DNA from: Limnohabitans sp. Bal53 | GTDB lineage: Bacteria > Pseudomonadota > Gammaproteobacteria > Burkholderiales > Burkholderiaceae_C | NCBI RefSeq assembly: GCF_003063355.1 | Contig: NZ_NESH01000001.1 | Span: forward strand, 806,001 to 870,000 | Length of the DNA stretch: 64,000 nucleotides | Direction: 5' to 3' | Shown: piece by piece, positions 49,522 through 64,000 of the stretch | Position numbering within the stretch: the stretch's first letter is position 1 | Layout of the letters: each line of letters opens with the position of its first letter | Notes under the pieces: model-generated | What the model saw: only the letters and a program-made list of their open reading frames with translations | The model's database searches: none | What the model was told of the DNA's origin: nothing | Program-made: the position numbers and the translations under genes

Positions 49522-50353
49522 GCGCGGCAAACACCTGGGCGCGGTCCGGGTCGTTGAAGATCTCGTGGTACATGGCCTCGAAGCATTGGGCCTGCACCAC
49601 GGCCTGAGGTGCAGCGTGCACAAAGTCGGCGGTGGCCTGCGCGTTCACCAGTTTGTCTTGTCCTGCGTACATCAGCAAAGTAGGCACGGCCCACTCCGAA
49701 GCGTCGTGCAAAGTCTTCTCGCCGTTGTCCAAAATCCATGCAGCCAGGCCCGTTGAAATGCGCCGGTGCACCAGCGCATCGGCTTTGTAGGCCTTCACCA
49801 CATCGGGGTCGCGTGACACAAAATCGGCTTGCAAGCCGTTGTCCACGCACAAGTGCGGCGCCACGCGGGGCAAAGTGGCCAACAGCATTTTTTGCAAGAA
49901 ATTGGGAAATGCCCCCAAAGCCGGAGACGACAACACGGCCGCATCGACCGCGCCCAAACCTTCGGCCAGCGTGCGGGCCACCACCAGGCCACCCATGCTG
50001 TGGCCCAGCAAAATGAGGGGCGCGTCCTTCAAAGCCGGTCGCTGGCGCGTGTCTTCGATCACGCGGCACACATCAGCCTGCAAGCTGCCGGGGCGCAGCA
50101 TGTCACCACGCGGGCCTTCGGACTGGCCGTGGCCATGCTGGTCGTAAGCCCGCACCGCAAAGCCCCACTGGCGCAAGTGCGCCGCCACCTCAGCGTAGCG
50201 CCCGGCATGTTCACCCAGGCCGTGCACCAAAAGCACCGTGCCCAGGGGCTGGTTGGCGGGCATGGCCCAGTCGTAGACCGCCAACTGCCCGGCCTCGCCC
50301 GGCAAAGCCGAAAGGCTTGGGTGAGCGATCGAGGGGCGCGCACTGATGGTCAT
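49487..50353 (-). CDS. Alpha/beta hydrolase, monoacylglycerol lipase-like
   Basis: 288 residues. The oxyanion region is LLVHGLGEHAGRY, the nucleophile elbow GHSMGG, the acid in YAGQDKLV, and the His in CFEAMYHEIFND; this is the lysophospholipase/monoacylglycerol lipase layout (Hydrolase_4). It should hydrolyse a glycerol ester. Its ATG overlaps the stop of the upstream peptidase gene (TGATG). The end overlaps the convergent MFS gene by 35 bp. Confidence 0.88.
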   Translation of the reverse strand: MTISARPSIAHPSLSALPGEAGQLAVYDWAMPANQPLGTVLLVHGLGEHAGRYAEVAAHLRQWGFAVRAYDQHGHGQSEGPRGDMLRPGSLQADVCRVIEDTRQRPALKDAPLILLGHSMGGLVVARTLAEGLGAVDAAVLSSPALGAFPNFLQKMLLATLPRVAPHLCVDNGLQADFVSRDPDVVKAYKADALVHRRISTGLAAWILDNGEKTLHDASEWAVPTLLMYAGQDKLVNAQATADFVHAAPQAVVQAQCFEAMYHEIFNDPDRAQVFAALKRWLLARFFA

Positions 50354-51834
50354 CAAGGCATCCGCGCCATCACTTCGGCCACCGCCGCCGTGAGTTTTTT
50401 GGCATAAGGCACATGCAAAAACTCGTTCGGTCCGTGTGCGTTGCTCTTGGGGCCGAGCACGCCGCAGACCATCATTTGCGCTTTGGGGAAACCGGCGCTC
50501 AGCATGTTCATGAGTGGGATGGTGCCGCCTTGGCCGATGTAGCCTACGCCTGCACCAAAGTGCGCTTGGCTGGAGCTGTTGAGCGCCTGCTCGAACCAAG
50601 GCAAGGTGTCGGGGGCATTCCAGCCGGTGGCGCCGCCGCCTGACTCAAACGTGACTTTGGCCTGGTAGGGCGCGTTGTCTTCCAGCAAGGCCTTCATCTC
50701 GGCCACGGCTTGCGCCGCGTCCACCAGCGGGGGCAGGCGCAGGCTGAGCTTGAAGGCGGTGTAGGGGCGCAGCACATTGCCCGCGTCTTTCAGCGCCGGA
50801 AAACCTTCCGCTCCGGTCACGCTCAGCGTCGGTGTCCAAGTGCGGTTGAGCAGGGCTTGTGTCGGGTCGGTGGTGGTGGGCAGGGCAAAGCTGGTCGAGC
50901 CGCCGCAGTCGTAGTGGGCCCAGGGGAACCGCTTGTAGACCTCGTCGCCAAGGATGGCGGCTGTGGCTTGCGCTTGCGCCAAACGCTCGGCAGGCACTTC
51001 GCAATGGAAGCTGGCGGGCAGCAATCGGCCCGTGGCGCTGTCTTCGAGGCGGTCGAGCACCTGGCGCATGATGCGAAAGCTCGACGGCACCAGGCCCGAG
51101 GCGTCGCCCGAGTGGATGCCTTCGGTCAGCACCTGCACCTTGAGCGTGCCGCTGGCCATGCCGCGCAGGCTGGTGGTGAGCCACAACTGGTCGTAGTTGC
51201 CCGCGCCGCTGTCCAGGCAGATCACCAGGCCCACATCGCCCATGCGGGTGCGCAGCGCGTCTACATAGGGCAGCAGGTCATACGAGCCAGACTCTTCGCA
51301 AGTCTCGATCAGGCCAACGATGCGCGGGTGGGGCGTCTTCTGGGCTTTGAGGGCCTGCACGGCGGCAATGCTGGCGTAAACCGCATAACCGTCGTCTGCG
51401 CCGCCCCGGCCATAGAGCTTGCCGTCTTCGTACACCGGGGTCCATGGGCCGAGGTCATTGCGCCAGCCGTTGAACTCCGGCTGCTTGTCCAAGTGCCCGT
51501 ACATCAGCACGGTCTGGCCCGAGCCCTCGCTGGCGGCGCGGGTGGCGGCCACTTCAAAAAACATGACCGGTGTGCGACCGGGCAGCTGGATGATTTCGAG
51601 CACAAGGCCCTCGACCTTTTGCGCCTCGACCCATTGGGCGGCGCGGCGCAACACCGACTCGATGTGGCCGTGCGCGGCCCAGTCGGCATCAAAAGCGGGC
51701 GACTTGGCCGGGATCTCGATGTAATTTTTCAGCTCGGGCACGATGGTGCTGTCCCAGGCTTGGGTGACATCGCTCAAGGCGCGGGCGCTGTCCAGCAGGC
51801 CATCGGGCATTTCGCGGTGCAAGGGGGCGTTCAT
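50353..51834 (-). CDS. M20-family metallopeptidase (dipeptidase)
   Basis: 493 residues. MYGHLDKQPEFNGW holds the first zinc ligands, YGRGGADDGYAVYASI the bridging Asp, and ETCEESGSYDLLPYV the Glu pair. A lid/dimer domain is inserted around 215-370. It resembles the CPG2/CNDP-type dipeptidases and should cut dipeptides or N-acyl amino acids in the cytosol. Coupled to the downstream hydrolase gene. Confidence 0.88.
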   Translation of the reverse strand: MNAPLHREMPDGLLDSARALSDVTQAWDSTIVPELKNYIEIPAKSPAFDADWAAHGHIESVLRRAAQWVEAQKVEGLVLEIIQLPGRTPVMFFEVAATRAASEGSGQTVLMYGHLDKQPEFNGWRNDLGPWTPVYEDGKLYGRGGADDGYAVYASIAAVQALKAQKTPHPRIVGLIETCEESGSYDLLPYVDALRTRMGDVGLVICLDSGAGNYDQLWLTTSLRGMASGTLKVQVLTEGIHSGDASGLVPSSFRIMRQVLDRLEDSATGRLLPASFHCEVPAERLAQAQATAAILGDEVYKRFPWAHYDCGGSTSFALPTTTDPTQALLNRTWTPTLSVTGAEGFPALKDAGNVLRPYTAFKLSLRLPPLVDAAQAVAEMKALLEDNAPYQAKVTFESGGGATGWNAPDTLPWFEQALNSSSQAHFGAGVGYIGQGGTIPLMNMLSAGFPKAQMMVCGVLGPKSNAHGPNEFLHVPYAKKLTAAVAEVMARMP

Positions 51835-51957
51835 GGTGGGGGCTCCTCGGGGCGACACAAAAGAAAAACACTGTAGCGCGTTTGGAACTGACTGACCACG
51901 GCGGGCATTCACAGAGGTGACGCCAAAGCGGCAGCACTGGCGCAGGACCTCGGCACA

Positions 51958-52671
51958 ATGGCCGATCCACCACCCACACGGAGCGCCCGATTGAACGTGA
52001 CAACCTTGGTTCAGCCCACCACAGAGCCTGCCCTGCGCGTGGGCGGGTTGGTGCTGGCCGCGGGCGCGGGCAGCCGCATGGGGAACCGCCCCAAATGCCT
52101 GTTGCAGCTGAACGGAATGAGCCTGCTGGAGCGGCAATTGCAGGCCTTGTCGCTGGCGGGCGTAAGGCCCGTGGGGGTGGTGCTGGGGCACCACGGCGAG
52201 CGCATCTTGCAAGAAGGGATTTTGACCCGCTGGGCAGCCCAACAGGTACGTAACCTGCGGCCCGATGACGGCCATGTCAGCTCCTTGCGTATCGGCTTGA
52301 AGGACTTGCCCACAGGGCTGGACGCGGTGGTGGTGGCACTGGCTGACCAACCCTTGATCGATGTGCAGGCGGTGAAAGCGCTGCTGGCAGCCTTTGCGCA
52401 GCGCCCTGCTGGCACGCAGATGCTGCAACCGAGTGTGAAAGGCTTGCCCGGCAACCCGGTGGTGTTCTCTGGCGAGGTGATGGCGCAAATTTTGGCGGGC
52501 GAAGAACACATAGGCGCACGCCAATGGCAGCAGGCCCACCCCGAAGCCGTGTTCCGCTGGGAAACACCCCATAGTCTTTACCGACTGGATGTGGACAATG
52601 AAGCTGACCGGCAAGCCGTTGAGGCGTCGACTGGGCGCAGCCTCCATTGGCCGCCCGATTTGGTGCTTTAA
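51958..52671 (+). CDS. MocA-like nucleotidyltransferase (molybdenum cofactor type)
   Basis: 237 residues. GGLVLAAGAGSRMGNRPK is the nucleotide-binding opening of the MobA-like NTP transferase fold, and ALADQPLID holds the metal Asp. It resembles MocA/YgfJ-like enzymes that add CMP to molybdopterin for xanthine-dehydrogenase-type enzymes. Next to an XdhC-like gene 14 bp away. No molybdoenzyme subunit is in the window. Confidence 0.82.
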   Translation: MADPPPTRSARLNVTTLVQPTTEPALRVGGLVLAAGAGSRMGNRPKCLLQLNGMSLLERQLQALSLAGVRPVGVVLGHHGERILQEGILTRWAAQQVRNLRPDDGHVSSLRIGLKDLPTGLDAVVVALADQPLIDVQAVKALLAAFAQRPAGTQMLQPSVKGLPGNPVVFSGEVMAQILAGEEHIGARQWQQAHPEAVFRWETPHSLYRLDVDNEADRQAVEASTGRSLHWPPDLVL

Positions 52672-52685
52672 ACAGAGAGCCCCCC

Positions 52686-53690
52686 ATGAACAGCATCGAC
52701 ATTGACGTCATCCGCACCGCACTTGACTGGCAAAGCAGGGGCCACCGCGTAGTCATGGGCACGGTCGTGCGCACCTGGGGTTCGGCACCACGCCCCCCTG
52801 GCTCGCTCATGATCATCCGTGACGACGGCCAAGTGGCCGGTTCGGTCTCGGGCGGTTGCATCGAAGACGATTTGATCCGCCGCGTGGCCGCAGGCGAGCT
52901 GGCCCTGCGCCTGCCCGACACCACCACCTACGGCCAGACCGCCGAAGAGGTGCGCCGCTTTGGCCTGCCCTGCGGCGGCTCGGTGCAGGTGGTGCTGGAG
53001 CCTTTGAGCGCCCAATCGCAGCTGCGCGAATTGCTGGTGCTGATCGAGCAACACCAACGTGTAGAGCGCTGCATGGACATGGCCACGGGCTTGGTGCGCA
53101 TGGCTGCAGCCACCGAGGGCGACAAGCTGCAGTTTGACGGCCAAAGCTTGACCACGGTGCATGGCCCGCGCCTGCGCTTGCTCATCATTGGTGGCGGTCA
53201 ACTGTCGCGCTATCTGGCCAATATGGCGGTCATGCTCGACTACCAGGTCACGGTGTGCGAGCCGCGTGTGGAATACCACGAAGGCTGGGAAGCCATGAGC
53301 GGTGTGACCTTGTCCAAAGAGATGCCCGACGACCTGGTGCTGGCCATGCGGCTGGACCACAACAGCGCCGTGGTGGCCGTGACACACGACCCCAAACTGG
53401 ACGACCTGGCGCTGATGGAAGCACTGCGCACCCCCGCTTTTTATGTGGGCGCATTGGGCTCGCTGCATAACAACGCACAGCGCCGCAAACGCTTGCTCGA
53501 CTTTGACGTGAGCGAAGCCGAAGTGCGCCAACTGCACGGCCCTGTGGGCCTGAACATTGGCGCTCTGACGCCACCCGAAATCGCGCTGAGCATCGTGGCC
53601 GAAATGACCGCCATGCGCCGGGGCACAGATTTGAGACAGGCGCTCAGCAATTGGCAAGGCTCCAAGACGGTGTGTGGTGTCAGCGCCTGA
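52686..53690 (+). CDS. XdhC/CoxI-family protein
   Basis: 334 residues, start at MNSIDIDVIR. The N-terminal XdhC/CoxI domain (GTVVRTWGSAPRPPGS, VSGGCIED) is followed by a Rossmann domain (LLIIGGGQLSRYLA, FYVGALGS). XdhC proteins insert or sulfurate molybdenum cofactor for xanthine dehydrogenase-type enzymes. The MocA partner next door supports that. It ends 4 bp from the convergent otnI. Confidence 0.88.
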   Translation: MNSIDIDVIRTALDWQSRGHRVVMGTVVRTWGSAPRPPGSLMIIRDDGQVAGSVSGGCIEDDLIRRVAAGELALRLPDTTTYGQTAEEVRRFGLPCGGSVQVVLEPLSAQSQLRELLVLIEQHQRVERCMDMATGLVRMAAATEGDKLQFDGQSLTTVHGPRLRLLIIGGGQLSRYLANMAVMLDYQVTVCEPRVEYHEGWEAMSGVTLSKEMPDDLVLAMRLDHNSAVVAVTHDPKLDDLALMEALRTPAFYVGALGSLHNNAQRRKRLLDFDVSEAEVRQLHGPVGLNIGALTPPEIALSIVAEMTAMRRGTDLRQALSNWQGSKTVCGVSA

Positions 53691-53694
53691 GGCC

Positions 53695-54528
53695 TCAAAG
53701 GTAAGGCCGCGCCCAACTCAAGCCGCGTGAAGTGCCACCCGCAGACGCATCGGCTGGGTTGTACTCGCAACCAATCCAGCCCTCCCAGCCGCATTCGGAC
53801 GACACCTTGTCAATGACCTGGAAGATGTGTGTCCAGTTGACTTCGCCTGTGCCCGGCTCGTGGCGGTGCGGCACTTCGGCAATCTGAAAATGCCCCACCC
53901 GGCCCGTCGGAAGGTATTGGGCAATCTTGGCGCTCAAATCACCTTCCACAATCTGGCAGTGAAACAGGTCCATTTGCACCTTGACATTGGCAGCGCCCAC
54001 AGCCTGCACGATGCGGTGCGCGTGGTCTTGGCGGTTCAGGTGAAAGCCCGGCACGCTGCGGGTGTTGATGGGCTCGACCAGCACGTCGCGTCCAGCCTTG
54101 GCGGCTTCGACGGCGGCCCATTGCAAGTTGCCGATCAGCGTGGCATCAGCCGCTTCTGGGCTGGCACCTTCGGCCCGCAAGCCCACCATGGCGTGGATGC
54201 GCGGGCAGTTCAGCGCCTCGGCATACACCAGGGCTTGGGCAAAACCGGCGCGAAACTCGGCTTCGCGCCCGGGCACGCTGGCCGTGCCGCGTTGGCCCGT
54301 CTCCCAAGCCTTTGCAAAGCTGTCGGTATCGGTGCCGCCAGGCGGGGCGTTGAACAGCACCTGCTGCAAGCCGTTGGCTTTCAAGCGGGCAGCCAACTCT
54401 GGCGCTGGAAAGGCATAAGGAAACAAATACTCCACGGCCTTGAAACCGTCTTTGGCCGCCGCTTCAAAACGGTCTAAAAACGGCATATCGGGGTACATCA
54501 TGGAGAGGTTGGCGGCAAAACGAGGCAT
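53695..54528 (-). CDS. otnI: 2-oxo-tetronate isomerase
   Basis: 277 residues of the hydroxypyruvate-isomerase-like TIM barrel. FAANLSMMYPDMPFLDRF at the N-terminus and metal/base residues in VLVEPINTR, QMDLFHCQIVEGD and GWIGCEYNP. In the four-carbon acid pathway OtnI interconverts 2-oxo- and 3-oxo-tetronate. Its place with ltnD, otnK and otnC supports this over glyoxylate-route hydroxypyruvate isomerase. It is parted from otnC by a repeat array, so it may be less expressed than the rest. Confidence 0.85.
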   Translation of the reverse strand: MPRFAANLSMMYPDMPFLDRFEAAAKDGFKAVEYLFPYAFPAPELAARLKANGLQQVLFNAPPGGTDTDSFAKAWETGQRGTASVPGREAEFRAGFAQALVYAEALNCPRIHAMVGLRAEGASPEAADATLIGNLQWAAVEAAKAGRDVLVEPINTRSVPGFHLNRQDHAHRIVQAVGAANVKVQMDLFHCQIVEGDLSAKIAQYLPTGRVGHFQIAEVPHRHEPGTGEVNWTHIFQVIDKVSSECGWEGWIGCEYNPADASAGGTSRGLSWARPYL

Positions 54529-54568
54529 GGTTTTCTTTCAGTCAGTAAAGAAGGACTTGGGCTGCAAG

Positions 54569-54895
54569 CATGGATGGCCGCGCTTCGCTCGCCATGACAA
54601 ATGGGAGGTCAACACCCTACGCATTGTCATCGCGAGGCACGAAGCAGCCATGGAGTTCTGCGCTTCGCTCGCCATGACCAGTGGGACATCAACGCCCAGA
54701 CCGTTGTCATCGCGAGGCACGAAGCGATCCATGGAGTTCTGCGCTTCGATCGCCATGACCAGTGGGGCGTCAATGCCCAGACCGTTGTCATCGCAAGGCA
54801 CGAAGCAGCCATGGAGTTCTGCGCTTCGCTCGCCATGATCAGTGGGGCATCAACGCCCAGACCGTTGTCATCGCGAGGCACGAAGCGATCCATGG
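54569..54895. repeat. Tandem array of ~80-bp near-palindromic repeats between otnC and otnI
   Basis: Four blocks starting TTGTCATCGC at 54624, 54704, 54785 and 54865 (spacing 80, 81, 80) and four blocks of CGCTTCGCTCGCCATGA type at 54581, 54661, 54742 and 54822. The two block types are near reverse complements, so each unit is an imperfect palindrome of about 55 bp with a 20-25 bp spacer. This is the only stretch over 300 bp without a gene. A half-copy lies at the end of dacB. Frames through the array shift at each unit, so ORFs there are not genes. Confidence 0.9.
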
Positions 54896-54901
54896 GTGGG
54901 C

Positions 54902-55567
54902 TCACCATCTCGCGCCAAAGACTTGGCGCAGATCGTCCAAATCCTTGGGGTGCAGGGGTGGCGTGTTGGGTTGCAAGAGCATCAAACGCGCCGTTTCTTC
55001 CAGCTCTTCGAGCGTGGCCATGGCGGCGGCTGGCGTGTCGTGCCAGACGTTGGGCCCCAGGCGCGTGAGCATCACGGCGCGGATCGGCGCCCCCTGCGCA
55101 GCATGGTGGCGGATCAGCGCAGCCACTTCTTGCGCGGCATCGGGGCTGCCGGGTCGGTGGTAAGTCACCAGCGGTACATGGCCCACTTTCATCACGAAAT
55201 AAGGCGTGATGGGGGGCAGCAATTCAGGACCGCCGGCGTTCAAGCTGAGCGCCACGCAGTGCGTGCTGTGGGTGTGGATCACGCAGCGGGTGTGGGCATC
55301 CGTCTCACAAGCCGCAGCGTAAATTTGGCGGTGCAAGGCGATGGTTTTGCTGCCCTTGTCGCCACTGACTTGTTGGCCTTGCAGATCGAGCTTGGCCAAG
55401 CGTGCCGGGTCCAGAAAACCCAAACACGCATCGGTGGGGGTGATGAGGAAGCCATCGTCCAAACGCACGCTGATGTTGCCCGCCGTGGCGTGCACATAAC
55501 CGCGCTCAAAAAGGCTGCGGCCCACGCGGCAGATCTCTTCACGGGCTTGGGATTCGGTCAGGTTCAT
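54902..55567 (-). CDS. otnC: OtnC-like 3-oxo-tetronate 4-phosphate decarboxylase, class II aldolase family, with altered active site
   Basis: 221 residues aligning through the whole length to the class II aldolase/OtnC group (HATAGNISVRL, LITPTDACLG, VIHTHSTHCVALS, PYFVMKVGHVPLVTYHRPG, LEELEETARLML). The two zinc His in HTHSTH remain. The third zinc ligand, normally His of NHGPVV, lies in RLGPNVWH, so the His is a Leu; the Glu of PSKE is replaced (GSKT). It overlaps otnK (ATGA). It should decarboxylate 3-oxo-tetronate 4-phosphate to dihydroxyacetone phosphate, but with two key residues missing this step is uncertain. Confidence 0.8.
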   Translation of the reverse strand: MNLTESQAREEICRVGRSLFERGYVHATAGNISVRLDDGFLITPTDACLGFLDPARLAKLDLQGQQVSGDKGSKTIALHRQIYAAACETDAHTRCVIHTHSTHCVALSLNAGGPELLPPITPYFVMKVGHVPLVTYHRPGSPDAAQEVAALIRHHAAQGAPIRAVMLTRLGPNVWHDTPAAAMATLEELEETARLMLLQPNTPPLHPKDLDDLRQVFGARW

Positions 55568-56841
55568 GCCAAGACTGTAAAAGCTTTGCTGAAGAAATCT
55601 TCGGTGCCGAAGTTGCCCGATTTGAGCGTGATGTGCACGCCGCCGTTTTCAGAAGGCGCATGACACCACGGCACGCCCGGATCAATCTGCGGGCCAATTT
55701 GCAACTGGGCAATGCCCAACGCCTGCACACAAGCGCCCGAGGTTTCGCCACCGGCCACCACCAGTTGCTTCACACCCAAATCCACCAGGCCACGCGCCAC
55801 AGCGGCCAGTGCGTGCTCCACCAAAGCACCTGCCTCGGCCACGCCCAGTTGGGCTTGCACGGCTTTCACGGCATCGGGCTCGGCGGTGGAGTACACCAGG
55901 ACCGGGCCATCTTTCAAGAGCGGCGCGGCCCAAGCCAGCACCTGCTGCACCACGGCATCGCTTTGCCCGTGCATCAGCGCCGCAGGGTTGATCACCATCG
56001 CGGGGCGGCCTGTCGTTTTGAAGTGCGCCACTTGTGCGTTGGTGGCCAAAGAGCAGCTGCCCGACACCACGGCTTGCAAGCCAGTGGCTGCAGGCAACTG
56101 GCTGGCTTGCAGCGAAGGCTTGAGACCAAAATTGGCGGGCAGGCCAATCGCCACGCCCGAGCCCGCAGTGACCAGCGGCATGTCCTTCAAGGCAGGTCCA
56201 AGCAAGTGCAGGTCATCGTTGCTGGTCGCGTCGACAACGGCCACGCCCACGCCTTCGGCACGTAAAGCAGCGATGCGTGCACGGATCGCGGTTTCACCTT
56301 GCGTCACGGTTTTGTAGTCGATCAAGCCCACCTTGCGCTTCGTTTGCGCTTGCATGACGCGCACCAAATTCGCATCGGTCATGGGCGTGAGCGGGTGGTT
56401 TTGCATGCCCGATTCATTGAGCAACACGTTGCCCGCGAACAGGTAGCCCTTGAACACAGTGCGGCCGTTGTCAGGAAAGGCGGGCGTGGCGATGGTGAAG
56501 TCGGTGCCCAGCGCGTCCATCAGCGCCTCGGTCACCGGGCCGATGTTGCCTTCAGGTGTGCTGTCAAAGGTGGAGCAGTATTTGAAATAAATCTGCGGTG
56601 ATTGACCATTGTGGCCTTGCGCCTGCAACCACTTCAAGGCGTCGAGCGACTGGGCAATGGCTTCAGCGGCCGGAATGGTGCGCGACTTGAGCGCGACCAC
56701 CACGGCATGAACATCAGCAGCCAGCGGCCCTGCGGGCACACCGATGGTCTGCACCACCCGCATGCCCGAGCGCACCAGGTTGTTGGCCAGGTCGGTGGCG
56801 CCGGTGAAGTCGTCGGCAATACAACCGAGTTGGATCTTCAT
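55564..56841 (-). CDS. otnK: 3-oxo-tetronate kinase
   Basis: 425 residues of the DUF1537 kinase family. The N-terminal substrate domain has GCIADDFTGATDLANNLV and the C-terminal nucleotide domain has GGETSGACVQALG and LKSGNFG. It phosphorylates 3-oxo-tetronate at carbon 4. Coupled by ATGA to both ltnD before and otnC after. Confidence 0.9.
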   Translation of the reverse strand: MKIQLGCIADDFTGATDLANNLVRSGMRVVQTIGVPAGPLAADVHAVVVALKSRTIPAAEAIAQSLDALKWLQAQGHNGQSPQIYFKYCSTFDSTPEGNIGPVTEALMDALGTDFTIATPAFPDNGRTVFKGYLFAGNVLLNESGMQNHPLTPMTDANLVRVMQAQTKRKVGLIDYKTVTQGETAIRARIAALRAEGVGVAVVDATSNDDLHLLGPALKDMPLVTAGSGVAIGLPANFGLKPSLQASQLPAATGLQAVVSGSCSLATNAQVAHFKTTGRPAMVINPAALMHGQSDAVVQQVLAWAAPLLKDGPVLVYSTAEPDAVKAVQAQLGVAEAGALVEHALAAVARGLVDLGVKQLVVAGGETSGACVQALGIAQLQIGPQIDPGVPWCHAPSENGGVHITLKSGNFGTEDFFSKAFTVLA

Positions 56842-57737
56842 GCTTTGCCTTTCGGCAGTTCAATGCCCGGGAAAATCTTGATGACGGCGCTGTCGTCTTC
56901 CTTGGCAAAGCCCGCTGTGCTCGCCTGCATGAACATCTGGTGCGCGGTGGAAGACAGCGGCAGCGGGAACTTGCTGGCACGGGCCATGTCGAGCACGATG
57001 CCCAAATCCTTCACAAAAATGTCGACGGCCGACAGCGGTGTGTAGTCGGCCGCCAGCACATGGGCCATGCGGTTTTCAAACATCCAGCTGTTGCCTGCGC
57101 TGTTGGTGATGACTTCGTACAACGCCGCTGGGTCCACGCCCTCGCGCAGGCCCAGCGCCATGGCTTCAGCCGCAGCGGCAATGTGCACGCCCGCCAGCAA
57201 CTGGTTGATGATCTTGACCTTGCTGCCCGCGCCGGCGCTGTCGCCCAGCTTGTAAACCTTGGCGGCCATGGCATTCAAAAACGGCTCTGCCACGGCATAA
57301 GCCTCGGGCTTGCCTGCGGTCATCATGGTCATCTGGCCGCTGGCCGCTTTGGCTGCTCCGCCAGAGATGGGCGCATCCACATAACGCAGGCCCAAGGCCT
57401 CCAGTCGCGCTTCCAGGGCCACCGACCAATTGGGGTCGACAGTGGAGCACATCACAAACACACTGCCGGGCTTCATGCTGGCCGCACACCCGGGCGTGGT
57501 GCCATCGCCAAACAACACGGCTTCGGTTTGCGCAGCATTGACCACCACCGACACGACCACATCACACGCCGCGCCCAAAGAGGCCAGTGTGTCGTGTGCG
57601 GTGCCACCGGCATTCGTGAAAGCCTCGGCCACCTCGCGGCGCACGTCAACCACCTGCACGCTGTGCCCGGCGCGGCGCAGCGATGCGGCCATGCCCGAGC
57701 CCATGGCGCCCAAACCAATCAATCCGACTGTGGTCAT
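56838..57737 (-). CDS. ltnD: L-threonate dehydrogenase
   Basis: 299 residues from MTTVGLIGLGAMGSGMAASL, the NAD-binding motif; APISGGAAKAASGQ is the substrate loop and GAGSKVKIINQLLAGVH holds the catalytic Lys. By family it could be any beta-hydroxyacid dehydrogenase; the neighbours otnK, otnC and otnI point to L-threonate (2-dehydrogenation to 2-oxo-tetronate). It starts 10 bp behind the receptor gene. Confidence 0.87.
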   Translation of the reverse strand: MTTVGLIGLGAMGSGMAASLRRAGHSVQVVDVRREVAEAFTNAGGTAHDTLASLGAACDVVVSVVVNAAQTEAVLFGDGTTPGCAASMKPGSVFVMCSTVDPNWSVALEARLEALGLRYVDAPISGGAAKAASGQMTMMTAGKPEAYAVAEPFLNAMAAKVYKLGDSAGAGSKVKIINQLLAGVHIAAAAEAMALGLREGVDPAALYEVITNSAGNSWMFENRMAHVLAADYTPLSAVDIFVKDLGIVLDMARASKFPLPLSSTAHQMFMQASTAGFAKEDDSAVIKIFPGIELPKGKA

Positions 57738-57747
57738 GGCTGTGCTC

Positions 57748-58722
57748 TCAATCCAATTTGATGTTGGCGAACGCCGCCACATTTTTCCATTTGGCGGTAT
57801 CGGCTTGCATGAAGCTGGCCAGGCCTTGGCTGTTGGCCCATGCGGGCTCTGCGCCCGACTTGAGCATGGCGGCCTTCACTTCGGGCATTTTGGCCACGCG
57901 CTCCAGCGCTTGCTCCAGCTTTTGCAGTATGGGGGCTGGCAAGCCCGCAGGTGCGGCCACACCAAACCAAGAGAACACCTGGAAGCCCTTCATGCCAGCT
58001 TCCTCCATGGTGGGCACATCGGGCAAGGCGCTGCTGCGCATGGGGGTGGTCACCGCTAAAGCTTTCAACTTGCCCCCCTTGATCAGGCCCAGTGCCGAGG
58101 GCAGGTTGTCAAACATCATATTCACTTCGGTCGCCATCAGGCCGGTTTGCGCGGCAGCGGCGCCACGGTAAGGGATGTGGGTGACAAACGCACCCGACTG
58201 GCTCTTGTACAACTCAGCGCTCAGGTGCAGCGAGGTGCCCTGCCCGTTGGACGCGTAGTTGAGCTGGCCGGGCTTGGATTTGGCCAACGCCGTGAGTTCG
58301 GCGACCGAGTTGATGCCTGAACTCGGGTGGACCATCAGCACATTGGGCACACGGCCCAGCAGGGCCACTGGGGCAATTTGCTCGGGCTTGTAGGGCAGTT
58401 TGCTGTAAAGCGCCGGGCTGATGGTGAGCGGTGGCGAAGCCATCAGCAAGGTGTAGCCATCGGCGGCAGCACGCGCCGCCTCGGCAGCACCCAAGTTGCC
58501 ACCGGCACCGGGCTTGTTGTCGATCACGATGGGCTGCCCCAACTCCAGCGCCAGCTTGGGCGCGACCAAGCGGGCCATGTTGTCGATCAGGCCGCCGGGC
58601 GGAAAGGGCACCACCAGTTTGATGGGCCGGGTTGGCCAGGCTTGCGCCAAAGCGGTAGTGGCCATTAATGGGGTGATGGCGAGCAGGGCAGCGGCTGCTG
58701 CGATCCAATTTCTGCGTTGCAT
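57748..58722 (-). CDS. Tripartite tricarboxylate transporter substrate-binding protein (Bug/TctC family)
   Basis: 324 residues. Signal peptide ends near ALA-Q27. WPTRPIKLVVPFPPGGLIDNMAR is the family's binding-loop signature, followed by NKPGAGGNLGA. It captures a carboxylate in the periplasm. No TctA/TctB membrane genes are near, as is common in Bug-rich betaproteobacteria. First gene of the otn operon with an AGGAG Shine-Dalgarno, so threonate or a similar acid is the likely ligand. Confidence 0.9.
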   Translation of the reverse strand: MQRRNWIAAAAALLAITPLMATTALAQAWPTRPIKLVVPFPPGGLIDNMARLVAPKLALELGQPIVIDNKPGAGGNLGAAEAARAAADGYTLLMASPPLTISPALYSKLPYKPEQIAPVALLGRVPNVLMVHPSSGINSVAELTALAKSKPGQLNYASNGQGTSLHLSAELYKSQSGAFVTHIPYRGAAAAQTGLMATEVNMMFDNLPSALGLIKGGKLKALAVTTPMRSSALPDVPTMEEAGMKGFQVFSWFGVAAPAGLPAPILQKLEQALERVAKMPEVKAAMLKSGAEPAWANSQGLASFMQADTAKWKNVAAFANIKLD

Positions 58723-58922
58723 GGGGAGTCTCCTGGTGTTAATTAGTCAGGTCATCATACAAATTTTGAATCGCCTTGGCATCAGGGTGATCACTGGGAA
58801 ACACCTCAACATCATGCGTGGGCATGCAGTCGCCATGCGACGGCCATCCTTCATGCGAAGGTGACAGCGCCACCGCGCATGCAGCCTGTAAGCTGACCCA
58901 TCGACCCCTCACTGGCTTGCCT
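58723..58922. promoter_or_regulatory. Divergent promoter region between the otn operon and the reductive dehalogenase gene
   Basis: 200 bp with no gene. Near 58746-58762 a sequence TCAGGTCATCATACAAA resembles half-sites seen for GntR-type regulators, and GGTGATCACT near 58787-58796 is a short palindrome. I see no cobalamin riboswitch fold here. No dedicated regulator gene is adjacent. Confidence 0.3.
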
Positions 58923-61900
58923 ATGCGCTTATTTTCTTACCGCGACCGTCCCGTTCACTTGGGGCCCTACCCGCTGGAGCGCCTGCGCCGAACCACCGCC
59001 AACCCCGAGGACAGCGCCGTGCCACCCATGCAGGCGCTGCGTTTTGAGCACGATGACCCCGAGTCGATGGCCCACGCCATGGCGCGTTACATGGCCATGT
59101 TTGATCTGGTGCGCGACGGGGCCGTGAACCCGCAAATGGGGGAGATTCCGGCCGAGCCCGACGAACGCGCCCGGCACTTGAAGGCTGCGGGTTATTACTT
59201 TGATGCGTCGATGATGGGCATTTGCGCCCTGCCCGCCAACGCCTGGCTGGCCGAGCCGATCCGCAACCCCGCTGTGCCCGCCCTGGGCGAAGAGCTGGCG
59301 AAGAGCCAACCGGCCAGTTTTGCGGCGGGCATGGACATGATCTTGGCCGATGTGCTGGAGTCGGCCCGCACGGTGCACGGGCCGATTGGACACCACAGCC
59401 ACGCCATCGTGATCCTGGTGGAGTTTGCGCGGGACCCCAAACCCGGTGAGCCCGGCTGCGACTGGCTGGGGGGCACACAAGAACCCCGCGCTGCTGTGCT
59501 GGCCGCGCAAACGGCCGTGCTGCTGTCGAGTTATTTGCGCATGTTGGGCCACGAGGCCCGCGCCCACAGCGCCAGCTGCAGCGATGTGAATTTGGCCCGC
59601 CTGGCCCTGGCCGCAGGCCTGACCCTGCCCGATGGCGGCAACCCCTATGTGGGTCAGCGCTATGCCTTGGCCGCCGTCAGCACCACCTTGGCGCTGACCC
59701 CTGATCAAGCCTTGGCACCGCAACAAAACCGCTGGCAAAGCCACGGCCCGGCGTGGTGGCTTGGCCAAGGCACATTCAAAGGCGCATTTCACCGCGACGC
59801 TTATGCCCGGCGCGAGTTTCGCCAAGGGGCGCACCCGTTTGAAACGCTCAAGCGCCAAGACACGCCCACCACCTTCATCGACCACGACCGCGTGCCTCGA
59901 TTCCCGAAGCGGGCCGACTTTTTTGCGCGCGCTTTGTTTGGCGACCTGGGCAAGTCTGTGCAAGACGACGCCAAGAACGCGCACTACGTGATTAAAAGCC
60001 CCATCGGCGCTTGTGCGCGTCGGGCGCTGGGCGCTTTGCTGCTCTTGCAGTTTGGCCAGGCGCGTGGGCCAGTGGCCGCCAGCACACAAGACCCGCAGCG
60101 CAACGCCGACAACCTGAAAGCCGCTTCTTACTATTTGGGGGTGGACGCGGTGGGCCTGTGCGCCGTGCCCGAGTGGGCCTATTACTCGCACGACGCGGGG
60201 GGCAACCCCATGCCGGCTTACCACGCCAATGCGCTGAACCTGCTGATCGACCAAGGCCACGAAACCATGGAGGGCGCCAGCGGCGACGATTGGATTTCGG
60301 TGGCGCAGAGCATGCGGGCTTATTTGCGCTTTTCGCTGATGGGCGGCATTTTGGCCGAGCAGATTCGGCGCCTGGGTTATTCGGCCCGGGTGCATTCGGT
60401 GCTCGACGGCGACGTGCTGCAACCGCCTTTGTTGCTGCTCTCGGGCCTGGGCGAAGTCAGCCGCATCGGCGAGGTGATCCTCAACCCGTTTTTGGGCCCG
60501 CGCCTGAAAAGCGGCAGCGTCACCACCGACATGCCCATGGCCCCCGACCGGCCCATCGACTTTGGCCTGCAAAGCTTTTGCGAAAGCTGCAACAAGTGCG
60601 CCCGCGAATGTCCGTCTGGAGCCATCACTGCGGGCCCCAAGCTGATGTACAACGGCTACGAAATCTGGAAAAGCGACGCCGAAAAGTGCGCCCGCTACCG
60701 CATCACCAACGCGGCAGGCGGCATGTGCGGGCGCTGCATGAAAACCTGCCCCTGGAACCTCGAAGGCCTGCTGGCCGACAGCCTGTGGCGGCAAGTGGCC
60801 ATGAAGCTGCCTGCTGCTGCACCAGCGCTGGCGCGGCTCGATGACCTGCTCGATCGCGGCAGCATCAACCCGGTCAAAAAATGGTGGTGGGACATCGAGC
60901 TGGACAAGCGCACGGGCCGCTATGTACGGGCCGCACAAACCCACCAACGCACCCTGCAAAAAGACCTGGACCTGCGCTACGAAGACCAGACCCTGGCCGT
61001 GTACCCGGCCGACAAAATGCCGCAGCCCTACCCGGTCACTTACCCGGTCAACCGCGAAGAAGGGATTGCCCGCTACCAGGCCTTGCTCACGCCCGCGCAA
61101 TACCAGGCGCGTCTGGCGGCAGGCCAGACCGAGGGTCTGGCCCCGGGACCGCAGCCTTTGCCTGCCGAGCCGCCGGTGTTTCCGGTGGTGCTGCACAAAC
61201 GTGAAGAGATGGCCGAGGGCCTGGCGCGTTACGAGTTCAAAGCGCCCGATGGCCGCGAGTTGCCACCCTTCACCGCAGGCGGGCACATTGACGTGGTGAT
61301 CGCACCCGAATACCAGCGCCCCTACAGCCTGGCAGGCGACCCGGCCGACCGCAGCCGTTATGTACTGGGCGTGCTGCGTGAGCCGCCCGAGTCTGGCGGA
61401 CGCGGCGGCTCGGCGCTCATGCACCGGGCCTTTCGCGAAGGACGCAGGGTGTTTGTGTCACGCCCGGTCAACCACTTTGCACTGCACGAAGAGGCCACGC
61501 ACAGCTGGCTGATGGCCGGGGGCATTGGCGTGACACCCATGATCGCCATGGCGCACCGCCTGCACGCTTTGGGCAAGCCTTTTGACTTTCACTACAGCGC
61601 GGCCAGCCGAAAGACAGCGGGCTTTTTGAAAGACCTGGCCGAGGTGCCTTGGGGCCATCGGGTGCAATACCACTTCAAAGACGAAGGCCAGCGGGCTGAT
61701 TTGTTGCAGCTCTTGCCCAACTACACGCCAGGCCAGCATGTCTACACCTGCGGTGCACCGCGCTTCATGGACGGTGTGTTTGAAGCGGCTGCTGCCCACG
61801 GCTGGCCACAAGACGCGCTGCACCGCGAATACTTCAGCGTGCCCGAAGCCGACGCTTGGGTGAATCAGCCGTTTGAACTGGTGCTGCAAAAATCTGGCCG

Positions 61901-62141
61901 CCGCTTGCAAGTGCCCGCGGAGCGCAACGCCACCGAGGTGCTGGCCGAGGCAGGGCTGGGCATCAGCGTGAAGTGCAGCGATGGCCTGTGTGGCGTATGC
62001 GCCTTGCCTTACGATGCGCAAGCCTCCGATGCAGTGGAGCACCGCGACTTTGTGCTGAGTCAAAAAGAGAGACGGCACAAGGTCATTTTGTGTTGCTCAC
62101 GCGCCAAAGACGCCGGGGGCGTGATCGCGCTCGATTTTTAA
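58923..62141 (+). CDS. Self-sufficient cobalamin-type reductive dehalogenase (RdhA-ferredoxin-reductase fusion)
   Basis: 1072 residues, start at MRLFSYRDRPVHLG, no Tat signal, so cytosolic. Order: duplicated RdhA-like region (repeat 1 about 87-225, repeat 2 about 399-500), two 4Fe-4S motifs (C553-E-S-C-N-K-C-A-R-E-C-P; C589 and C602-G-R-C-M-K-T-C-P), an FMN/NAD(P)H reductase (R799-P-Y-S; G866-G-I-G-V-T-P), and a plant-type 2Fe-2S ferredoxin (C1018, C1023, C1026, C1057). Candidate catalytic residues Y467, K529 and R593 sit at +41 from those I recall for NpRdhA (Y426, K488, R552). This is the catabolic, aerobic-type dehalogenase layout known from BhbA and NpRdhA, which remove halogen from halogenated phenols using NAD(P)H. 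Substrate unknown. Confidence 0.9.
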   Translation: MRLFSYRDRPVHLGPYPLERLRRTTANPEDSAVPPMQALRFEHDDPESMAHAMARYMAMFDLVRDGAVNPQMGEIPAEPDERARHLKAAGYYFDASMMGICALPANAWLAEPIRNPAVPALGEELAKSQPASFAAGMDMILADVLESARTVHGPIGHHSHAIVILVEFARDPKPGEPGCDWLGGTQEPRAAVLAAQTAVLLSSYLRMLGHEARAHSASCSDVNLARLALAAGLTLPDGGNPYVGQRYALAAVSTTLALTPDQALAPQQNRWQSHGPAWWLGQGTFKGAFHRDAYARREFRQGAHPFETLKRQDTPTTFIDHDRVPRFPKRADFFARALFGDLGKSVQDDAKNAHYVIKSPIGACARRALGALLLLQFGQARGPVAASTQDPQRNADNLKAASYYLGVDAVGLCAVPEWAYYSHDAGGNPMPAYHANALNLLIDQGHETMEGASGDDWISVAQSMRAYLRFSLMGGILAEQIRRLGYSARVHSVLDGDVLQPPLLLLSGLGEVSRIGEVILNPFLGPRLKSGSVTTDMPMAPDRPIDFGLQSFCESCNKCARECPSGAITAGPKLMYNGYEIWKSDAEKCARYRITNAAGGMCGRCMKTCPWNLEGLLADSLWRQVAMKLPAAAPALARLDDLLDRGSINPVKKWWWDIELDKRTGRYVRAAQTHQRTLQKDLDLRYEDQTLAVYPADKMPQPYPVTYPVNREEGIARYQALLTPAQYQARLAAGQTEGLAPGPQPLPAEPPVFPVVLHKREEMAEGLARYEFKAPDGRELPPFTAGGHIDVVIAPEYQRPYSLAGDPADRSRYVLGVLREPPESGGRGGSALMHRAFREGRRVFVSRPVNHFALHEEATHSWLMAGGIGVTPMIAMAHRLHALGKPFDFHYSAASRKTAGFLKDLAEVPWGHRVQYHFKDEGQRADLLQLLPNYTPGQHVYTCGAPRFMDGVFEAAAAHGWPQDALHREYFSVPEADAWVNQPFELVLQKSGRRLQVPAERNATEVLAEAGLGISVKCSDGLCGVCALPYDAQASDAVEHRDFVLSQKERRHKVILCCSRAKDAGGVIALDF

Positions 62142-62163
62142 AAACCCTGAGGGAGAGACTGTC

Positions 62164-62883
62164 ATGGATACTGAGCGAAAAGTCTTCGTCACCGGCGGCA
62201 CCAGCGGCATAGGCGCCGCCATTGCGCGCGCATTCGCGGCCACAGGCGCCAGTGTGACCGCGACTGGCGCCACATCCGCCGAAGTGGAGGCTGCACAAGC
62301 CCTGCCGGCCAACCGCTTGGTGGCTTTTCATGTTCTGGATGTGCGCCAGGATGCCCACGTTCGCGCCCACATAGGGCAATTCACGCAACTGGATGTGCTG
62401 GTCAATTGCGCAGGCGTGATCCAAAGGCAAGCTGAATTGGACCCCGAGGTTTTTGCTCAAACGGTGGACATCAACCTCAACGGCACCATGCGGTCTTGCG
62501 CAGCAGCGCGCGAAGGACTCAAAGCACGCCAAGGTTGCATCATCAACACCGCCTCAATGCTGAGCTTTTTTGGCGGCGGCCTGGTGCCCGGGTACAGCGC
62601 CAGCAAAGGGGGTGTGGCGCAACTGACCAAATCGCTGGCCATTGCCTATGCGGCCGATGGCATCCGGGTGAATGCGGTCGCACCGGGTTGGATTGCCACG
62701 CCTTTGACACAGGCCTTGCAAGACGATGCTGAAAGATCGGCTCAGATATTGGGCCGAACGCCTTTGGGACGCTGGGGTCAGCCCGAAGACGTGGCCGACC
62801 CGGTGCTATTTCTGGCCAGTCCAGCCGCGCGCTTCATCACGGGCGTGGTTTTACCTGTGGATGGCGGTTACCTGATCCAATGA
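62164..62883 (+). CDS. SDR-family oxidoreductase
   Basis: 239 residues, the classical short-chain dehydrogenase size. Cofactor loop TGGTSGIGAAIA, NCAG, catalytic Ser-Tyr-Lys in NTASMLSF and YSASKGG, and VNAVAPGWIATPL. It resembles 3-oxoacyl-ACP or 2-keto-3-deoxy acid reductases; the substrate is unknown. It starts 22 bp after the reductive dehalogenase, so it is probably co-transcribed and may act on the dehalogenated product or on the same ring route; this link is inference. Confidence 0.85.
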   Translation: MDTERKVFVTGGTSGIGAAIARAFAATGASVTATGATSAEVEAAQALPANRLVAFHVLDVRQDAHVRAHIGQFTQLDVLVNCAGVIQRQAELDPEVFAQTVDINLNGTMRSCAAAREGLKARQGCIINTASMLSFFGGGLVPGYSASKGGVAQLTKSLAIAYAADGIRVNAVAPGWIATPLTQALQDDAERSAQILGRTPLGRWGQPEDVADPVLFLASPAARFITGVVLPVDGGYLIQ

Positions 62884-62926
62884 AGCCCAAGGGAGGGGCC
62901 CTGCGCAATGCCCCTCTGGCGCCTGC

Positions 62927-63244
62927 TCAGGGCTGAGGGCCCCAAGGTGCGGACAGCATGAGCTTGTTGTTTTGCTCGCGCATCAGCGGGCGGATCTTGG
63001 CGGCAAAGGCCATGAATTCCGGATCGGCAAACACCCCTGCCCAAAAGGCGCGGCGGTCGGCGTCGTCGTCAAACTTCCAGACATGGATCAGCTCGTTGAT
63101 CGCGCCCACATCGCCCGTGAAGTAGCCCACCAGTTTTTGCGGGTGCTTGGCCAGCGCAGGCCAGCCCTCGTTTTTGTAGTGCGAGATAACTTCGGACATT
63201 TTTCCGACGATCACGGAATAGGTGCGCAGCTCATAAATGGCCAT
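62927..63244 (-). CDS. NIPSNAP-family protein
   Basis: 105 residues of a ferredoxin-like alpha-beta fold, with MAIYELRTYSVIVGKMSEVI and VWKFDDDADRRAFW, typical of NIPSNAP proteins. Bacterial members often lie near catabolic gene sets, though their function is not known. Convergent with the SDR gene. Confidence 0.85.
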   Translation of the reverse strand: MAIYELRTYSVIVGKMSEVISHYKNEGWPALAKHPQKLVGYFTGDVGAINELIHVWKFDDDADRRAFWAGVFADPEFMAFAAKIRPLMREQNNKLMLSAPWGPQP

Positions 63245-63345
63245 GGTTTCCTCAAGGGGTGAAGTTTTGACACCTCACTCTAGCCTGAGAGGCATAAAGT
63301 CCTGTCAGGCGCGTGACTCGGGCACCCATAGCGCCCTCTTCGCGC

Positions 63346-63786
63346 TCAATCCCCTCGCACCACCAGCACCGGCACAGGGCTCAGCCGAATCACCTGTTCG
63401 GCCCCGCTGCCCAAGAGCATGCGGCCCAAGCCCCTGCGGCCGTGTGTGCCCAGCACCACCAAGTCCGCACCCCAAACGGCTGCCTCGTCGGCCACCGACT
63501 CACCCAAACGCTGGCGCGGCTTGTCCACCACATGCGATTCGGCGTTCACGCCCATGGCCGAGGCCGCGTCCATGGCCTTTTGCAGCAATTGCTTGGCGTT
63601 GTCATGCGCGTAGGTGCGCAAATCGGCCGAAAACTCATAACTTGTCAGGTGCCGGTCGTCATCGATCACATGCACAAAGCGCACGGTGCCCAGGGCTTCA
63701 CGGGCCATGTCCAGCGCCGTGCGCATGGCTTTATCGCTGGTGTCGCTGCCATCGATGGGCACCAAGATTTTTCTGAACAGGGGCAT
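63346..63786 (-). CDS. Universal stress protein (UspA family)
   Basis: 146 residues. KILVPIDGSDTSDKAM at the N-terminus and the ATP-binding pattern GTHGRRGLGRMLLGSGAEQVI (G-2x-G-9x-G-S form) show an ATP-binding type Usp. It is likely an energy- or stress-linked regulator in the cytosol. Confidence 0.92.
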   Translation of the reverse strand: MPLFRKILVPIDGSDTSDKAMRTALDMAREALGTVRFVHVIDDDRHLTSYEFSADLRTYAHDNAKQLLQKAMDAASAMGVNAESHVVDKPRQRLGESVADEAAVWGADLVVLGTHGRRGLGRMLLGSGAEQVIRLSPVPVLVVRGD

Positions 63787-64000
63787 TCAGGTCTCCAAGT
63801 GAGCGTGGACACGGTGCGTGAGGGTCTGCGTCAAAGGAGCTGACTGGTCCATGGTCGATGCTGTGGCCAGATGCATGTGCCCCTCTGTGCTAAACCCACG
63901 AACACCATGGGGGGTGGCTGAGGCTTCATGCTAGGCCGGCCTGCGCCGTCGCGCCATCTATCGAACGGTCTGTTTTGGGATGGCTGATGCCGAGATCTCG
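63787..64000. other. Right-edge stretch without a recognised gene
   Basis: No frame of useful length with family features is visible. It may be the upstream region of the Usp gene or the edge of a gene that runs off the window. Confidence 0.3.

Follow-up and report, generated by a model that had tools for sequence, protein, structure and literature searches.

A self-sufficient reductive dehalogenase gene of the RdhA-PDOR subfamily in Limnohabitans sp. Bal53

The window analyzed here, a stretch of 64,000 nucleotides from the genome of Limnohabitans sp. Bal53, carries a gene (rdhA) for a protein of 1072 residues in which a catabolic reductive dehalogenase (RdhA) is fused to a phthalate-dioxygenase-reductase (PDOR) module. 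The gene lies on contig C1 of 1,023,144 bases, in agreement with the betaproteobacterial chromosome named by the first-pass annotation. The protein is a genuine and well-identified further member of the RdhA-PDOR enzymes, a class already known, and its proper comparators are BhbA and JtRdhA (PMC10463259). The earlier choice of BhbA and NpRdhA as comparators was right for BhbA, but NpRdhA belongs to a short subfamily without reductase (PMC10463259).

Gene model, domain order and catalytic residues

The reading frame is open from ATG to stop codon (Table 1). An alternative in-frame GTG start upstream, at 58818, would lengthen the protein; residue 1 of NpRdhA, like the first residue of full-length relatives, aligns with the ATG. 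The open frame, the domain matches, the full-length relatives and a ratio of nonsynonymous to synonymous substitution rates (dN/dS) of about 0.06 against close relatives bear out the gene call. It is far beyond chance, since the best 80 loci listed from genomes of GTDB match it over nearly full length at 55-96% identity and dN/dS is that low. Promoter and terminator scanning of 58600-63400 gave signals no higher than in shuffles, and an Rfam scan of 50000-64000 gave zero matches.

Table 1. Features of the rdhA locus and of loci used for comparison; positions are those of the window unless a locus is named.
Feature	Position	Strand	Basis
rdhA-PDOR fusion gene, self-sufficient catabolic reductive dehalogenase, 1072 residues	58923..62141	+	homology, profiles, structure model
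Residues 1-300, counterpart of the vestigial duplicate domain of NpRdhA	58923..59822	+	phmmer, fold match; boundary approximate
Residues 105-156, without counterpart in the NpRdhA alignment	59235..59390	+	phmmer
Residues 301-657, cobalamin-type catalytic core with two 4Fe-4S motifs	59823..60893	+	phmmer, TIGR02486, fold match; boundary approximate
Ser463, Met464, Tyr467 (NpRdhA Ser422, Met423, Tyr426)	within 60309..60323	+	each the same in 112/112 rows
Lys529 (NpRdhA Lys488)	60507..60509	+	112/112 rows
First 4Fe-4S motif, Cys553/556/559/563	60579..60611	+	same in 112/112 rows
Second 4Fe-4S motif, Cys589/602/605/609	60687..60749	+	same in 112/112 rows
Arg593 (NpRdhA Arg552)	60699..60701	+	112/112 rows
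Residues 748-975, flavin and NAD(P)H domains of the PDOR module	61164..61847	+	phmmer, fold match
Residues 976-1072, 2Fe-2S ferredoxin domain, Cys1018/1023/1026/1057	61848..62138	+	Pfam; 99/99 rows with reductase
Four-carbon sugar-acid operon headed by a TctC-family binding protein	53695-58722	-	profile matches
Short-chain dehydrogenase, 22 bases downstream of rdhA	62164..62883	+	
Haloacid dehalogenase-type neighborhoods of short rdhA genes	L127:4178-6297, L125:3950-5344, L132:8088-8774, L141:1236-1810		

The RdhA core consists of a duplicated B12-type domain, one copy vestigial and one active, the vestigial copy being described as non-B12-binding (PMC10463259), and is followed by the C-terminal PDOR module with its 2Fe-2S domain. 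In phmmer searches, residues 1-104 together with 157-733 match NpRdhA (4ras) at E = 6.3e-168, whereas residues 754-1067 match phthalate dioxygenase reductase (2pia) at E = 1e-52. The NCBIfam model TIGR02486 (“reductive dehalogenase”) scores 181.5 bits against a cut-off of 160.35, the Pfam models Fer4_7, Fer4_16 and Fer2 all exceed their cut-offs, and the fold match of the predicted structure agrees with an RdhA core plus reductase module. By analogy, residues 105-156 may correspond to the RdhA-PDOR-specific insert described for JtRdhA (PMC10463259).

The residue alignment comprises 112 rows, including the window protein and NpRdhA, and several Limnohabitans genomes are present twice. In it Tyr467, Lys529 and Arg593, proposed as catalytic by the first-pass annotation, fall on Y426, K488 and R552 of NpRdhA, an enzyme in which the exchanges K488Q and R552L cause loss of activity. 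The constant offset of 41 also proposed holds as a net figure; only ten NpRdhA residues stand opposite residues 105-156 (+42), and the alignment has further small gaps. Within the reductase module, Arg799 and Ser802 are the same in all 99 rows that carry it. The protein therewith has the core, both 4Fe-4S motifs, the PDOR module and the Y467/K529/R593 set of a self-sufficient catabolic RdhA, as had been proposed, and we predict that it is catalytically active, as its residues make it look.

Other identities were set aside. A respiratory RdhA of the PceA type would differ in its twin-arginine translocation (Tat) signal: by inspection, with no signal predictor run, none is seen, as no hydrophobic segment follows the arginine pair at residues 22-23 and the N-terminal part aligns collinearly with that of NpRdhA; on this point the first-pass annotation stands. 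Among the neighbors identified no RdhB anchor gene is present, although no RdhB model was searched. The reductase module rules out a short catabolic RdhA of the NpRdhA type. An epoxyqueuosine reductase (QueG) was dismissed at 27.4 bits for TIGR00276 against a 200-bit cut-off, and a pseudogene on account of the low dN/dS against close relatives.

Relatives, distribution and selection

The class cannot be called rare, as the first-pass annotation had it. The GTDB scan gave at least 80 near-full-length loci, the best 80 each matching at least 1060 of the 1072 residues, and 448 of its 454 pattern matches encode some relative. Betaproteobacterial titles are borne by 30 of the 80 listed loci, and the closest relatives, 95-96% identical over full length, are mostly titled Limnohabitans among the matches listed, a scope that holds for all counts within the genus below; by title, Limnohabitans sp. 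DM1, WS1 and 2KL-1 are among the carriers of the gene. A tree built from 56 rows puts the window protein inside a clade of 23 rows with a Shimodaira-Hasegawa-like approximate likelihood ratio (SH-aLRT) support of 99. All but two of these rows are betaproteobacterial by title (the window by kin), the others being titled Pseudomonadota and Ca. Fonsibacter; BhbA lies outside the clade and pairs with a Nitratireductor plasmid protein (SH-aLRT 100). Two contigs of metagenome-assembled genomes, L028 and L032, titled Bordetella parapertussis and Ca. Fonsibacter lacus, are probably misnamed or misbinned because their rdhA-PDOR genes group within a clade of Burkholderiales genes.

The rdhA-PDOR gene is under purifying selection. 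Values of dN/dS range from 0.056 to 0.082 against the seven closest loci and from 0.092 to 0.153 against four more distant ones, do not exceed 0.125 in any of five segments, and fall to 0.033 (with L003) and 0.031 (with L010) in the B12 core. These values, together with the intact frame of 1072 codons, argue strongly against the view that the gene is a disappearing relic without present role, which we regard as very improbable. What speaks for a relic is the distribution within the genus, as the full-length gene occurs in just 15 of 90 genomes and decays in some Limnohabitans. In G003 (L129) only residues 562-623 and 763-1072 remain and in G069 (L130) only the last 84, whereas the copy in G028 (L131) is split into two overlapping pieces that read in different frames, both on a 3-kb contig, and its final part lies on another contig. 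The downstream flank of the window gene also lacks the ArgE-like and TctC genes that lie downstream in relatives. At a border of L130 equivalent to that of the window’s operon, the short-chain dehydrogenase (SDR) gene is kept, but TctC is gone and so is most of rdhA.

The short NpRdhA-like type is found in another 15 of the 90 genomes, some copies being incomplete. The two types were not found together in the genus (hypergeometric probability 0.0498, uncorrected for kinship), from which nothing is claimed. Four of the 15 short loci have a type II haloacid dehalogenase-like gene nearby, several other flanks being short; TIGR01428 is above cut-off in the two such genes scanned, the match in L141 is in two pieces, and glutathione-transferase-like genes are found in two of the four loci.

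Gene neighborhood, ring cleavage and cobalamin supply

Counts of neighbors are approximate, as the gene caller, with ad hoc weights, sometimes took an antisense frame over rdhA (for instance in L018, L025, L027, and L038). Upstream of the window gene, and divergent from it, lie the TctC-family gene and its sugar-acid operon, in which L-threonate dehydrogenase, 3-oxo-tetronate kinase and 2-oxo-tetronate isomerase score above their cut-offs and an OtnC-like gene slightly below. Downstream follow genes for the SDR, a NIPSNAP protein and a universal stress protein. The SDR is possibly co-transcribed with rdhA, and in all ten loci L003-L012 a 239-residue SDR begins at most 90 bases past the end of rdhA. 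A shared pathway is not claimed and the functional link is unproven, because the SDR is also kept in L129 and L130, which have no more than a remnant of rdhA; by tblastn none was found adjoining rdhA in L013 or L014.

Elsewhere the surroundings of rdhA vary. In L032, only 5 bases separate rdhA from the end of a Rieske/VanA-type oxygenase gene before it, and a phenol 2-monooxygenase lies on the other side; comparable Rieske/VanA genes are found at 100 bases from rdhA in L058 and at about 3 kb in L081. Eight loci, seven of them titled Ruegeria, have a xanthine-dehydrogenase-family trio after rdhA, the large subunit of which, in L082 as the one locus scanned, comes nearest to 4-hydroxybenzoyl-CoA reductase, below the cut-off of that model. 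In L058, the 5 kb upstream of rdhA also hold CobT and a CobS-like gene that scores below cut-off, and many other loci contain no aromatic or B12 clue around rdhA. A LigB-superfamily dioxygenase gene (PF02900, 118 bits) is located in L116 (6409-7254, minus strand) about 6.3 kb beyond rdhA, and similar genes are near rdhA in L004, L010, and L012. In L116, an FAD monooxygenase of the PRK08132 family and a VOC protein are encoded about 15 kb downstream of rdhA; in L013, a related pair plus fumarylacetoacetase adjoin it. This phenol-hydroxylase cassette was not used as evidence, because the sole match above 35% identity to the L013 monooxygenase in the searched stretches of the window genome (L119, 67%) sits on another contig.

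The window genome encodes PobA (684.5 bits; cut-off 538.7) and, adjacent to each other, LigA and LigB; therefore, 4-hydroxybenzoate could be used. CobS was not found in it by a search that shows CobS in 10 of 14 control genomes, and a gene for a BtuB-like receptor has a cobalamin riboswitch directly upstream; B12 is therefore probably salvaged. MetH was found in two pieces, the larger one above cut-off.

Proposed reaction and known systems

We consider it highly probable that the window gene encodes a cytosolic, probably oxygen-tolerant, self-sufficient catabolic RdhA-PDOR dehalogenase that removes an ortho halogen from phenolics; that it strips halogens from phenol-like compounds is very probable. 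The computed basis consists of the intact gene, the domain order, the conserved cluster ligands and catalytic residues, the fold match, purifying selection, PobA and LigAB, and the B12-receptor-like gene with its riboswitch. Cofactors, electron path, chemistry, phenolic substrate and oxygen tolerance are proposed by analogy with JtRdhA and NpRdhA, and the likely physiological role in Limnohabitans is proposed from gene content. NAD(P)H would reduce flavin mononucleotide (FMN) in the C-terminal module, and from there electrons would move one at a time by way of the 2Fe-2S domain and both 4Fe-4S clusters until they reach the salvaged cobalamin. The reduced cobalt would then take the halogen ortho to the phenol hydroxyl, while Ser463, Lys529 and Arg593 would hold the phenol oxygen and Tyr467, tuned by Lys529, would supply the proton. 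In this way bromine, iodine or possibly chlorine would probably be removed from hydroxybenzoate-type compounds, and the product would enter ring cleavage by PobA and LigAB.

Besides the scarcity and decay of the gene in the genus, several observations weigh against this proposal. The genes for PobA and LigAB are located elsewhere in the genome, away from rdhA, which among the neighbors identified has no directly adjoining aromatic-degradation gene, and the BtuB-like match (337.5 bits) is under the curated cut-off of 599.7. Confidence of the structure model is modest near the active site (block means 60-73 at residues 441-460 and 511-530) and near the Fe-S motifs (66-78 at 551-600). Furthermore, five of the twelve NpRdhA pocket positions are changed in the window protein (K307N, F310Y, P311V, A419V, and N452V, the call of K307N being less certain than the others as it adjoins an alignment gap), and therefore its substrates may differ from those of NpRdhA. 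Val460 may act like the A419M exchange of NpRdhA, because the latter moved relative preference towards mono-halogenated substrates (PMC7565698).

The changed pocket also bears on a tentative and rather doubtful variant of this proposal, namely that the natural substrates are chlorinated phenolics, for instance chlorinated pieces of lignin or humic matter in lake water. The host is a freshwater organism, by the genus of the nearest loci, and bromide is low in lakes. NpRdhA reduces chlorinated substrates (PMC7565698; PMC10463259), but JtRdhA, a purified member of the subfamily, is only inhibited by chlorinated compounds (PMC10463259). The bolder proposal that Limnohabitans dehalogenates via B12 in aerated lake water with an altered pocket (Val460, Val493, and Tyr355-Val356) that accepts chlorinated natural phenolics seems to us unlikely. 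Less probable again is a QueG-like enzyme acting on a non-halogenated leaving group or other reducible substrate, with halophenol activity incidental. RdhAs belong with QueG to a single class of B12 enzymes (PMC10463259), the QueG model does match weakly, most neighborhoods of rdhA are without halide clue, and the linked SDR could indicate an alcohol or ketone; yet that match is far under its cut-off, the phenol-binding residues and the catalytic tyrosine are invariant in the alignment, and every catabolic RdhA characterized by 2023 acts on ortho-halogenated phenols (PMC10463259).

The ortho-dehalogenase reading is of some interest in Limnohabitans because it is unsettled in print whether RdhA-PDOR enzymes handle brominated compounds only, and a freshwater, chromosomal and strongly conserved branch with a pocket other than that of NpRdhA offers a natural test of this restriction. 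If active, the enzyme would bring aerobic reductive dehalogenation to a lake genus in which one or more late steps of B12 synthesis (CobS) are apparently missing. Were the chlorinated reading true, the enzyme would differ from JtRdhA as a self-sufficient RdhA active on chlorine, and B12 supply would be tied to organochlorine turnover in lakes. A search limited to listings of open-licence papers and to passages of PMC13350131 found no account of a Limnohabitans RdhA; a published tree of reductive dehalogenases takes in RdhAs of Ottowia, Noviherbaspirillum and Burkholderiales JOSHI_001 (PMC10463259).

Among known systems, NpRdhA of Nitratireductor pacificus (4ras, 6zxu, and 6zy1) has no reductase module and nothing equivalent to residues 105-156, besides its five pocket differences. 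Self-sufficient P450s (6laa, CYP116B46; 6kbh) join a catalytic domain to a reductase of PDOR-like kind, as the window protein does, but that domain is a P450, and the analogy is one of design only. JtRdhA of Jhaorihella thermophila (WP_104007082), purified and kinetically characterized in 2023 after expression in E. coli with BtuCEDFB and an MBP tag, resembles the window protein by description, with RdhA plus PDOR, the Y/K/R residues and no Tat signal; it differs in its marine hot-spring host and in acting on bromine and iodine only, its NADPH-driven debromination and deiodination proceeding in air without dechlorination (PMC10463259). A Roseobacter debrominase was expressed in 2026 (PMC13101508). 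BhbA of Comamonas sp. 7D-2 (plasmid pBHB, L112), as which the “self-sufficient” subfamily was first described, has the same architecture as the window protein, with 51.9% identity over 1062 columns, and is likewise adjoined by a TctC-family gene. Their pocket strings differ (FFDSVSSMYAKR in BhbA against FFNYVVSMYVKR in the window protein), and BhbA is encoded on a conjugative plasmid beside protocatechuate 4,5-dioxygenase genes, whereas the window copy is chromosomal.
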